Positions 27,259 to 61,365 of a stretch of DNA of 64,000 bases are shown one piece after another. The DNA comes from Deltaproteobacteria bacterium (GTDB lineage: Bacteria; Desulfobacterota; Syntrophia; Syntrophales; UBA6807). The position numbers were made by a program, and so were the translations under genes. Numbering within the stretch: the first letter of the stretch is position 1; every line of letters begins with the position of its first letter. Location: positions 25,447 to 89,446 of the forward strand of contig JAFGQS010000144.1 in NCBI GenBank assembly GCA_016935565.1, written 5' to 3'. The notes below the pieces were generated by a model, which was given only the letters and a program-made list of their open reading frames with translations, searched no databases and was not told where the DNA came from.

Positions 27259-27333
27259 GCGGGCGTAATTCAGGGGTAGAATGTCAGCTTCCCAAGCTGA
27301 ACGTCGTGGGTTCAAGTCCCATCGCCCGCTCCA
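27259..27333 (+). tRNA. tRNA-Gly (anticodon CCC), CCA encoded
   Basis: Acceptor GCGGGCG/CGCCCGC, anticodon arm TCAGC-TTCCCAA-GCTGA, T arm GTGGG-TTCAAGT-CCCAT. Confidence 0.95.
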
Positions 27334-57921: not shown

Positions 57922-58075
57922 ATCATGATCGGTTCTTCGCCTATCGATCCTTCAAGTACGGGAAACAGAAAAATATTATTTGACTTTTGAATTTCTTTAT
58001 TATATCCTTCGTTCGATTTTATAGTTATTGGCGACGTAACAACCTACAAAAATGAGAGCCACAAGAAGAGGAACC

Positions 58076-58159
58076 ATGAGCAGAAAAGATCTCTTGAATT
58101 TGTTGTGCCTCGCTCTTCTTTTGGGCATATGCCCGTGGCCCGTCATATTGAGGGAATGA
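58076..58159 (+). CDS. Leu-rich leader peptide / small ORF (27 aa) upstream of the oxoacid oxidoreductase operon
   Basis: AGAAGAGG SD then ATG; MSRKDLLNLLCLALLLGICPWPVILRE* (9 Leu); terminator begins 25 nt after the stop. Confidence 0.5.
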   Translation: MSRKDLLNLLCLALLLGICPWPVILRE

Positions 58160-58184
58160 TCTGGTAAAATTGCGATGTTCCTGA

Positions 58185-58217
58185 AGGCCATGGGAAAAAT
58201 CCCATGGCCTTTTTTTA
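58185..58217 (+). terminator. Strong rho-independent terminator in leader of the oxoacid oxidoreductase operon
   Basis: AGGCCATGGGA-AAAA-TCCCATGGCCT followed by TTTTTTT, perfect 11-bp stem. Confidence 0.93.
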
Positions 58218-58264
58218 TGACAAAAACGCAACAGCTAACAGAAGAGAAATAAAGGACAAAACAA

Positions 58265-58858
58265 ATGCAAGAAGTTTTATGGCATGGAAGAGGTGGTCAG
58301 GGGGTCGTTCTTGCTGCTCAGATACTTGGAGAAGCAGCGTATATTCAGGGGTTTAAAGGTATCACGTCGGCACCGACATTCGGACCGGAACGAAGAGGTG
58401 CTCCCGTAGCGGCATCGACGAGAATATCCGACGAACCGATCAGGACATTTTCACAAATTGAGGCGGCTGACGTTGCCGTTGTCCTTGATGCAACCCTTCT
58501 GACGATGATCGATATCCTCGGCAGATTAAAAGAGAGGGGAATGATCATCGTCAATACACCTCTTGCTCCCGATCAAATCGGCATTGAAGGGTGTTTTGAT
58601 GTCGCGTCCGTTGATGCCTCGGGAATAGCGCGGGAGCAGCGTCTTACGGTCGGGGGCTTCCCCATTGTGAATACTCCCCTGCTTGGCGCTTTTGCAAAGG
58701 CTACCGGGCTTGTCTCGATCACAAATATCGAACGGGGACTGAAGAAAAAAATGCCCGCCGACAGAGCCATTGCAAATTGTGCTGCCATCAGGACAGCCTT
58801 TGAAAACACCATCGTCAAGAGGCATGATTCGAAAACCGGCACAAGCGATAAGAAATGA
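58265..58858 (+). CDS. 2-oxoacid:ferredoxin oxidoreductase gamma subunit
   Basis: WHGRGGQGVVLAAQILGEAAYIQG, FGPERRGAPVAASTRIS. Confidence 0.95.
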   Translation: MQEVLWHGRGGQGVVLAAQILGEAAYIQGFKGITSAPTFGPERRGAPVAASTRISDEPIRTFSQIEAADVAVVLDATLLTMIDILGRLKERGMIIVNTPLAPDQIGIEGCFDVASVDASGIAREQRLTVGGFPIVNTPLLGAFAKATGLVSITNIERGLKKKMPADRAIANCAAIRTAFENTIVKRHDSKTGTSDKK

Positions 58859-58966: not shown

Positions 58967-59260
58967 ATGGGGAAAAAAGACACAAACATATCGGCACTGT
59001 GCACTCCCGCACCGGGTGAGGCAGGCAGAACCGGAGACTGGCGAGACATGCGGCCGGTCATTGATGAAACGAAGTGTATTCCAACAACAAAAGGAAAGGC
59101 CGCCTGTTTTCTCTGCTGGCTTTACTGTCCGGAAGGTGTGGTGAAGATGTCCATACCCGTCGAGATCGATCTGGAATACTGCAAGGGCTGCGGGATCTGC
59201 GCCGAAGAGTGCCCGCCTAATGCGATACAAATGGTAAGAGAGGGAGAGATCAATGAGTGA
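58967..59260 (+). CDS. 2-oxoacid:ferredoxin oxidoreductase delta (4Fe-4S) subunit
   Basis: CFLCWLYCPEGVV ... DLEYCKGCGICAEECPPNAI. Confidence 0.92.
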   Translation: MGKKDTNISALCTPAPGEAGRTGDWRDMRPVIDETKCIPTTKGKAACFLCWLYCPEGVVKMSIPVEIDLEYCKGCGICAEECPPNAIQMVREGEINE

Positions 59261-60461
59261 TGTCCGAATTATAACAGGAAACGAGGCAGCGTCTCTCGGA
59301 GTGAAGCTCTGCGAGCCGAAAGTCGTTGCCGCCTATCCCATCACCCCCCAGTCGGCACTGGCTGAAACCCTTTCAAGATATGTGGAGGGAGGAGAACTGA
59401 AAGCGGAATATGTTCGGGTTGAAGGTGAACATTCGGCCCTTACCGTCTGCATATCGGCATCCACGGTGGGAGCACGGGTCTTTACGGCAACAAGCTCCAA
59501 CGGACTTCTGTACATGCACGAGCAGCTCCACTGGGCGGCAGGGTCGCGGCTCCCTATCGTCATGTGCTGCGTCAACAGAGGGGTCGGTGCACCCTGGTCA
59601 ATATTCAATGATCAGCAGGATTCCATTTCCCAAAGGGATACGGGCTGGATACAAATGTACTGCCGGGATAATCAGGAGATAATCGATTCGATGATTCAGG
59701 CATACCGGATCGCAGAAGAGGTCTATGTCCCCGTTATGATCTGCTATGACGGGTTCGTTCTTTCTCACACCATGATGCCGGTGACTATTCCCGATATTGA
59801 GTCGGTCAGGAAATTCCTGCCCCCGTATAAACCCCATACGATCCTGTCACCTGAAGATCCCCGGACCATCAATTCCGTCCTGTTACCGGTCAGAAGAGCA
59901 AACCCGGAAGGGGTCCTCTGTGACGGGTATATGGAAATGAGGTATAAACTGCAGGCCGCACTGGATCAATCTCGAGACGTCATCCGGAAAGCGAACGAGT
60001 TATTTGCCCACACCTTCGGAAGAAATCATGGCGGCATGCTCTGGGAATATATGACGGACGATGCCGATCTGATCCTGACCGGTATGGGATCGATTGCAGC
60101 GGAGGCAACGGTCGCCGCCGACATATTGAGAGCGGAAGGAGTGAAGGCAGGGGTCGTGGGCATCAGGGTGTTTCGTCCTTTCCCGAAAGATGATGTCATT
60201 ACGGCGTTCGGTCATGCCAAAGCCATTGTCGTATTTGAAAAAGGCATCAGTTACGGGTATGAAGGGGCTCTCTGCTCCGATCTGAAGGCTGCTTTCTTCG
60301 GCACCGATAGTAAGGCCCCCATCCATAATTATATCGCCGGACTTGGCGGGAGAGATGTGAAACCGCGGGAGCTTGTCGAAGCGGGCAAAACAACACTTGC
60401 CGCTGTTGAAGCGGGACGTATGAATCATGAAATAAAATGGCTCAATTGCTATACGGGGTAA
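59253..60461 (+). CDS. 2-oxoacid:ferredoxin oxidoreductase alpha subunit
   Basis: VAAYPITPQSALAETLS, EGEHSALTVCISASTVGARVFTATSSNGLLYMHE. Confidence 0.96.
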   Translation: MSDVRIITGNEAASLGVKLCEPKVVAAYPITPQSALAETLSRYVEGGELKAEYVRVEGEHSALTVCISASTVGARVFTATSSNGLLYMHEQLHWAAGSRLPIVMCCVNRGVGAPWSIFNDQQDSISQRDTGWIQMYCRDNQEIIDSMIQAYRIAEEVYVPVMICYDGFVLSHTMMPVTIPDIESVRKFLPPYKPHTILSPEDPRTINSVLLPVRRANPEGVLCDGYMEMRYKLQAALDQSRDVIRKANELFAHTFGRNHGGMLWEYMTDDADLILTGMGSIAAEATVAADILRAEGVKAGVVGIRVFRPFPKDDVITAFGHAKAIVVFEKGISYGYEGALCSDLKAAFFGTDSKAPIHNYIAGLGGRDVKPRELVEAGKTTLAAVEAGRMNHEIKWLNCYTG

Positions 60462-60465
60462 ACTC

Positions 60466-61365
60466 ATGAAAGACAACATATTCAAGATCAACGAAAAAGA
60501 ATACATCTTGCCGGGGAGCAGGGCATGTCAGGGATGCGGCCTTTCTCTGGCCTATCGTCATCTGTTAAAGGCATTGCGCGAAGATACCATTATAACGTTG
60601 CCGGCGAGTTGCCTCTGCGTCCTGCACGGATTATATCCGATCACACCCGTTACCATACCGACGCTCAATACAACCTTCGCAAGTACGGCGGCCTCGGCCT
60701 CGGGTATTGCTGCCGGATTGGCTGCCCTGAACAAGACGGATATTACCGTTGTTGCCATCGCCGGAGACGGTTCGACCTACGACATGGGTATCCAGTCACT
60801 CAGCGGTGCGGCGGAACGAAATACGGATTTTATATTCGTCTGTTATGATAACGAAGGGTATATGAATACGGGAACCCAGCGCTCCAGTGCCACCCCGCTG
60901 GGTGCGACGACGACGACGACACCCATCGTGCCGAAACAGGATAACAAAAAAGATTTTATAAAGATCATGGAAGCGCATGACCTGCCCTATCTTGCAACAA
61001 CGTCTCCTTCATATCCTATTGATCTTTATGATAAATTCGTAAAGGCAAAACGGATCAAAGGCACGAGGTATATGCATATCTACTCGCCCTGTCCACCGGG
61101 CTGGGGGTACCCGACAAAAGATACGATCAGGATCGGAAAACTGGCAGTTGAAACGGGTATCGTCGTCCTCTGTGAAATAGAGAACGGAAAATTCCGCTTT
61201 ACCGGCCGGAGCAAAACCCTCTCAAAAAAAGGAAAGAAGCTTCCCGTCATCAACTATGTGGAACGACAGGGTCGTTTCAAAAAGATGAGTATCGAGCAGT
61301 TAAACACTCTTCAGACATGGGTGGATACACGATGGAATGAGTACCTGCGGCGTGCCGAGGAATAA
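60466..61365 (+). CDS. 2-oxoacid:ferredoxin oxidoreductase beta subunit
   Basis: CQGCGLSLAYRHLLKAL, AIAGDGSTYDMGIQSLSGAAERNTDFIFVCYDNEGYMNTG. Confidence 0.96.
   Translation: MKDNIFKINEKEYILPGSRACQGCGLSLAYRHLLKALREDTIITLPASCLCVLHGLYPITPVTIPTLNTTFASTAASASGIAAGLAALNKTDITVVAIAGDGSTYDMGIQSLSGAAERNTDFIFVCYDNEGYMNTGTQRSSATPLGATTTTTPIVPKQDNKKDFIKIMEAHDLPYLATTSPSYPIDLYDKFVKAKRIKGTRYMHIYSPCPPGWGYPTKDTIRIGKLAVETGIVVLCEIENGKFRFTGRSKTLSKKGKKLPVINYVERQGRFKKMSIEQLNTLQTWVDTRWNEYLRRAEE

Follow-up and report, generated by a model that had tools for sequence, protein, structure and literature searches.

An operon for a 2-oxoacid:ferredoxin oxidoreductase is preceded, in a 64,000-nucleotide stretch of DNA from a bacterium of the order Syntrophales (the window, which is the whole stretch that was analysed), by a short open reading frame (sORF) crowded with leucine codons and by an intrinsic terminator. 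This arrangement raises the question of why such an enzyme would be controlled by leucine and which reaction it carries out. The initial annotation of the locus proposed a leucine-type transcription attenuator and, as a metabolic guess, the carboxylation of a branched acyl-CoA for leucine synthesis. The leucine-attenuator observation is real and goes beyond chance. The genes of the operon are the following:

58265 to 58858, plus strand: gamma subunit of 2-oxoacid:ferredoxin oxidoreductase, PorC/KorC subfamily (TIGR02175, 170.6 bits, cut-off 81)
58967 to 59260, plus strand: delta subunit, PorD/KorD (TIGR02179, 90.7 bits, cut-off 60)
59253 to 60461, plus strand: alpha subunit (best PorA_Arch, 440 bits; VorA-type, 370 bits; none over an equivalog cut-off)
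60466 to 61365, plus strand: beta subunit (best NF008818, 3-methyl-2-oxobutanoate dehydrogenase beta, 362.7 bits, cut-off 405)

The gamma and delta subunits exceeded the cut-offs of the pyruvate/2-ketoisovalerate subfamily models. The enzyme shares its four-subunit plan and its superfamily with 2-oxoisovalerate ferredoxin oxidoreductase (VOR), but it stayed below the NCBIfam cut-offs for VOR, with 370 against 646 bits for alpha, 362.7 against 405 for beta (a subfamily model) and 78.6 against 166 for delta, and its subunits likewise stayed below the pyruvate (POR) equivalog cut-offs. Since alpha and beta fall below every equivalog cut-off, no substrate is assigned by sequence. The neighbouring genes (an SDR gene, a KDO transferase gene (waaA), hflX, and rpe-like and holA-like genes) were considered as a clue to the substrate and set aside as uninformative, and a search among the adjoining genes for a link to isovalerate found none.

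The leader upstream of the gamma gene includes these elements:

57980 to 58008, plus strand: sigma-70-type promoter, TTGACT-N17-TATCCT, read from the sequence
58052 to 58159, plus strand: leader peptide ORF with 9 Leu codons, start at 58052 or 58076, stop TGA at 58157-58159
58058 to 58062, plus strand: 5′ strand (GCCAC) of a protector helix predicted by folding, with its partner GUGGC at 58135-58139 in the untranslated leader
58091 to 58123, plus strand: regulatory Leu run, with Leu at 8 of 11 codons (numbers 5-15 when counted from the ATG at 58076)
58123 to 58134, plus strand: GGGC-AUAU-GCCC hairpin, directly 3′ of the Leu run, with covariation in 40 relatives
58132 to 58162, plus strand: segment 2, the putative 5′ side of the antiterminator, made up of CCCGUGGCC (58132-58140) and GGGAAUGAU (near 58152-58162), from fold energies
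58173 to 58194, plus strand: segment 3, the putative 3′ side of the antiterminator and 5′ arm of the terminator, ending in GGCCAUGGG (58186-58194)
58183 to 58216, plus strand: intrinsic terminator (3:4), 13-bp stem plus T7

The product of the ORF at 58076-58159 is MSRKDLLNLLCLALLLGICPWPVILRE. When all sORFs of the window were compared, at least 7 Leu in 11 codons were found in one of 507 on the plus strand, the leader sORF alone, and in one of 640 on the minus strand. The coordinates first reported for the ORF, its Leu codons, CCCGUGGCC, GGCCAUGGG, the GGGC and GCCC blocks (58123-58126 and 58131-58134) and the gamma ATG at 58265 are correct. Other details had to be modified. The promoter had been recognized at TTGACT (57980) and extended over 15 nucleotides to TATATC; TATCCT, 17 nucleotides away, is a better match, and the pattern TTGACn-N17-19-TAnnnT occupies the equivalent position in 30 of the 50 homologous leaders compared; the spacer is 17 in 25 of these. 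The terminator had been described as a perfect 11-bp stem, and its stem is of 13 bp including A-U and G-U pairs (58183-58195/58200-58212, −22.9 kcal/mol). Translation had been assumed to start at 58076, an in-frame ATG with the better SD, AGAAGAGG, and it may do so; however, AGAAGAGG is coding sequence in the nearest relatives, and the start of these (MNRATRRD... in L004, MIRATVRD... in L003) aligns with an in-frame ATG at 58052 (MRATRRGTMSRKDLL...). The true start is therefore either 58052 or 58076, and the Leu run is in frame from both.

According to the mechanism proposed here, the attenuator would sense charged tRNA-Leu through the ribosome that translates the leader ORF. With ample leucine, the ribosome would pass the Leu codons, reach the stop codon and cover segment 2, segment 3 would then pair with segment 4, and transcription would terminate at 58216. 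Under leucine shortage, the ribosome would stall in the Leu run and leave segment 2 free to pair with segment 3 ahead of the synthesis of segment 4, and the RNA polymerase would enter the oxidoreductase operon. A switch with this layout would be expected to respond to leucine in vivo. Computation of the energies of the competing structures, suggested together with the original proposal, gave values that fit such a model of stalling and release. The transcript through segment 3 folded as the antiterminator (−23.6 to −28.2 kcal/mol) when the ribosome was placed at Leu codons 6 to 13, and with the ribosome at the stop codon the terminator was the only structure able to form (−22.9 kcal/mol alone). 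In the fold without translation the terminator formed and segment 2 was sequestered by the GCCAC:GUGGC helix, which encloses AAGAAGAG:CUCUUCUU and the GGGC:GCCC hairpin; inspection showed that the GCCAC strand is kept in the nearest relatives. The 1:2 structure is thus larger than the 4 bp of GGGC:GCCC originally described. The folding of the leader had a z value of −3.8, and none of 200 shuffles was equally good. At equilibrium, the terminator is more stable than the antiterminator once segment 4 has been made, and therefore the switch must be kinetic, with the choice made during transcription, as in classical attenuators.

Orthologs were identified by a gamma-subunit search in 100 relatives and their upstream regions were read, some MAG contigs ending before the leader. 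About 50 related Syntrophales genomes have the leader in front of the orthologous oxidoreductase operon. The layout is common to them: a Leu-rich sORF is followed by a small hairpin, then by a block resembling GCCCGTCGTTTTTAGGA and the partner of this block, TCCTAAAGGCCATGGG, and finally by the terminator. The Leu codons are kept in these leaders with synonymous variation, in agreement with the attenuator reading. All 51 leaders have Leu in the L4 column, encoded by 4 different codons, 49 of 51 have it in L3, and the L1 column includes CTG, TTG, CTA, TTA, CTT and CTC. Changes at the second codon position, which are always non-silent, are the fewest in the Leu columns. In five leaders (L027, L028, L030, L036 and L049) the block GCCCGTCGYTTTYAGG, usually read as PVVFR or PVVFRK, is intact and is read in another frame (ARRF, TRRF or HPSLSG before the stop), with the Leu run still in frame. 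These shifts indicate two separate constraints, one on the identity of the residues in the run and the other on the nucleotides that follow it. The leader thus has a short ORF, predicted to be translated, that is rich in codons for the regulating amino acid and appears to be under selection at the amino acid level. No leader was found upstream of four of the orthologs (L055, L056, L059 and L029, in G040, G024, G044 and G009, respectively), and all four genomes have leuA. Two other variants were observed. One leader (L042, upstream of gamma in G054:C2) has lost the sequence reaching from the Leu run to segment 2, with promoter and terminator retained; the genome lacks leuA, and the leader amounts to a naturally occurring mutant of the switch. 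In L050, L052 and L057, of one genus (g25), the peptide has few Leu codons (CLALPGPT before the stop), and the pairing of the antiterminator with the terminator arm (GGCCUCGUC:GAUGAGGCC) is perfect.

Covariation was analysed in an alignment of 40 leader sequences, and the alignment check advised initially showed that the 2:3 and 3:4 pairings are kept with compensatory changes. In the hairpin after the Leu run, 85.7% of the cells were paired, 22 cells were compensatory as opposed to 8.4 in shuffles, and four of the five pairs had two-sided changes. Two-sided changes were also present in 7 of 10 pairs of the antiterminator (3.7 in shuffles) and in 6 of 10 pairs of the terminator (1.3 in shuffles), where 98.8% of the cells were paired; no correction for shared ancestry was made in these tests. 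Sliding of the partner strands lowered the covariation signal for the three helices alike. In a set of 70 leaders of oxidoreductase and leuA genes, the duplex of segments 2 and 3 had a mean of −20.3 kcal/mol with its own partner and −17.8 kcal/mol with foreign partners (z −8.8), and none of 20,000 permutations was as low, in a test that ignores shared ancestry. An antiterminator that is exclusive of the terminator and overlaps the end of the ORF is thus present, as is an intrinsic terminator ahead of the structural genes. Judging from the nucleotide sequences, the leader is almost certainly an attenuator.

If the leader senses leucine, it might also be found at other genes. A covariance model, R1, built from oxidoreductase leaders alone was searched across the order and had matches at E values up to 0.01, some of them partial, in 153 of 156 genomes. 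Of the best 150 matches, 81 are followed immediately by leuA, at a median distance of 55 nt, and 63 by the gamma gene of the oxidoreductase, at a median of 31 nt; the other six have a contig end within approximately 400 nt downstream, so their downstream gene is not visible. One of the leuA genes was confirmed with NCBIfam (725 bits, over the cut-off), and inspection of the sequences located leuC, leuD and leuB after leuA. The Leu run is present in leuA leaders as well. As expected of an attenuator, therefore, 81 of the 150 best copies precede genes that make the amino acid sensed. Since the same attenuator precedes leuA-leuC-leuD-leuB, there is little doubt that the oxidoreductase operon belongs to the leucine regulon, as far as sequence comparison can tell, and the element is very likely a ribosome-mediated leucine attenuator common to leuACDB and the oxidoreductase operon. 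The leader also precedes leuA in two genomes of the same phylum outside the order (L145 and L146), so the leuA copy is likely older than the oxidoreductase copy.

The genome that includes the window is 99% complete and has ilvC and citramalate synthase. A family search showed leuA to be absent from it; the best match, beside a leuC-like gene, was rejected as LeuA and is the citramalate synthase (TIGR00977, 686 bits, over the cut-off). Genomes of the order with a completeness of 90% or more and a contamination of 5% or less, taken as high-quality, were classified by the presence of leuA and the enzyme: 18 have the enzyme without leuA, 3 have neither, 33 have both and 39 have leuA without the enzyme. 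The absence of leuA was associated with the presence of the enzyme (Fisher p 0.0012, not corrected for phylogeny), and the 18 enzyme-bearing genomes, from a total of 21 without leuA, span eight families. The enzyme ortholog was not found in the leuA-less genomes G030 and G067, and in G042, also leuA-less, two strong leaders are cut by contig ends, so the enzyme may be missing from the assembly. A weak R1 match in G030 was rejected as a Leu leader, as it is an aromatic leader before DAHP synthase. The 33 genomes with both genes indicate that the enzyme is not only a replacement.

Membership of the leucine regulon makes biosynthesis the most likely direction of the enzyme, and regulation and gene content together make us fairly confident of it. 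Because the genome of the window lacks the normal first gene of leucine synthesis and shares the switch, the enzyme probably makes the leucine carbon skeleton by an alternative route there. The guess that a branched acyl-CoA is carboxylated for leucine synthesis gains support from the lack of leuA in this genome and from the enzyme usually being present in leuA-less genomes of the order. The substrate that regulation and gene content somewhat favour is isovaleryl-CoA, which would be reductively carboxylated to 2-oxoisocaproate, a one-step reaction that would supply the leucine precursor and bypass LeuA. In the simplest view, the enzyme provides the leucine precursor and is able to replace LeuA. 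Sequence comparison supports the anatomy of the attenuator and its conservation, as well as the shared regulon and the lack of leuA; the explanation as a whole, a leucine attenuator with a biosynthetic enzyme that stands in for the missing LeuA, is likely to be right.

Other explanations accept the leucine attenuator and differ in the role of the enzyme. It could be an anabolic pyruvate synthase or a general 2-oxoacid synthase, with leucine as a proxy for amino acid shortage. The best score of alpha, to archaeal PorA (440 bits), and the retention of leuA beside the enzyme in 33 high-quality genomes point in this direction, but the leader is specific for Leu and, apart from the oxidoreductase, sits only before leuA, the absence of leuA is associated with the presence of the enzyme, and the best score of beta is to the 3-methyl-2-oxobutanoate family. 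We regard this possibility as unlikely, although it is the strongest of the alternatives. Characterised VOR-type enzymes can work in the oxidative direction, in which 2-oxoacids are degraded, and the enzyme could accordingly oxidise branched-chain 2-oxoacids in amino acid breakdown. An operon switched on by leucine shortage has the wrong sign for degradation, however, and the switch is common to leuACDB, which leaves this role improbable.

The remaining explanations question the attenuator itself, and both are considered very improbable. The Leu run is hydrophobic and conserved, as it would be in a conserved hydrophobic microprotein with the terminator as part of its own small gene. The initial annotation would have given way to such a microprotein, but the C-terminus lies in different frames among genomes, a Cys column beside the Leu core is occupied by C, R, S or G, the antiterminator covaries, and the element has a constant location ahead of leuA or the enzyme. 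The part of the core that reads CLAL is well conserved, also at the nucleotide level, and could belong to an arrest peptide whose signal is a small molecule, sensed by way of the exit tunnel of the ribosome, and not Leu-tRNA. Against this, the Cys and other non-Leu positions vary freely and only the Leu positions hold, and the length of the Leu run varies among leaders. The initial interpretation held against its own refuting conditions where these were checked computationally, and the preferred reading is still a leucine attenuator in front of a biosynthetic enzyme.

The enterobacterial leu leader (leuL, Rfam Leu_leader) is alike in its Leu-rich peptide, its mutually exclusive 2:3 and 3:4 helices and its terminator before leuA, whereas the Syntrophales leader has its own sequence-conserved scaffold and also controls a ferredoxin oxidoreductase operon. 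Neither the window nor five related loci reached the gathering scores of the Rfam leucine leaders, and no T-box was matched at the gathering score in the same sequences. The best permissive Rfam match was the Lactococcus Leu/Phe leader (RF01743), also Leu-rich, and membership was rejected, as the match, at 23.2 bits and E 0.11, fell far short of the gathering score of 70. A tRNA at positions 27259-27330 is the sole gathering-level Rfam match in the whole window. The available portion of a report on Geobacter, a lineage formerly in Deltaproteobacteria, describes a T-box before leuA (PMC2700814), which is alike in that leucine is sensed via tRNA-Leu before leuA; a T-box reads the uncharged tRNA directly, while the Syntrophales leader would use a translated Leu-rich ORF. 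The same portion describes a conserved 5′ element of the Geobacter iorAB-paaK operon, under tryptophan, for which it names no attenuator or mechanism (PMC2700814). This element is, to the extent described there, a partial precedent for tying a 2-oxoacid:ferredoxin oxidoreductase operon to one amino acid, and it differs in the amino acid, Trp, and in the enzyme, of the indolepyruvate type (PMC2700814).

The open-licence PMC literature yielded no account of leucine attenuation for ferredoxin oxidoreductases or VOR, an absence that is weak evidence. As far as we checked, the mechanism is of a known kind; novelty lies in the RNA family, in its second target and in the leucine route implied. The regulating codons provide a testable product assignment for an oxidoreductase that sequence families leave unassigned, and they point to a leucine route without 2-isopropylmalate synthase in syntrophic bacteria, a group difficult to cultivate. 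The leader itself is a widely conserved regulatory RNA without an Rfam entry. It is somewhat more probable than the contrary that many Syntrophales have lost LeuA and make leucine via ferredoxin-dependent carboxylation of isovaleryl-CoA under the leuA attenuator, and that attenuators label the products of otherwise unassigned 2-oxoacid:ferredoxin oxidoreductases across the phylum (Leu in one case, Trp or aromatic in the indolepyruvate-type enzymes).

When public genomes were scanned for the terminator motif, the same scaffold was found with other leader peptides. One terminator motif with Leu, Trp, aromatic and Ala versions could serve to map amino acid control across a poorly studied phylum. 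At three loci (L182, L229 and L240) a Trp-rich leader with WWW, e.g., NRTSNLWWWSSSHKGSGVRV, and the same terminator scaffold precede indolepyruvate:ferredoxin oxidoreductase alpha (IorA); an aromatic-rich leader (GFYFFIF) is located before another IorA (L219), and the terminators of L220 and L223 are similar. At the main indolepyruvate oxidoreductase, no convincing Trp or aromatic leader was found in 20 genomes of the order, and such leaders are limited to some other IOR loci. Nine loci (L178, L193, L197, L200, L215, L216, L228, L231 and L250), from Desulfuromonadales and related MAGs, have Ala-rich sORFs (e.g., AAAAAAA) before the same terminator motif, followed by a PLP aminotransferase gene (NF005334 in L178). 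From their sequences, these look like alanine attenuators. No description of such an attenuator was found in the open-licence literature, and to our knowledge the kind has not been described.

Several of these leaders are in the genome of the window itself. A Phe-rich sORF, MMVNSRFSRFGSFFAFFSFFGEVCLLSS, with two terminators (L152, G000:C16 near 56948) precedes a gene whose product resembles an ABC-type substrate-binding protein, with no NCBIfam match at E 1e-40. The peptide MIFIGNRHLLSWWWRAIT and a terminator (L156, G000:C119 near 2890), a probable Trp attenuator by its sequence, are found before a TrpB-like (TrpB2) gene. An aromatic-rich leader, MGKNVTLNWWFSYFYYSSPVYPSLVKM, with tandem terminators (L153, G000:C67 near 1146) is located before DAHP synthase, and another aromatic-rich leader, STRYFWFGYFYV, precedes DAHP synthase in G030 (L162).
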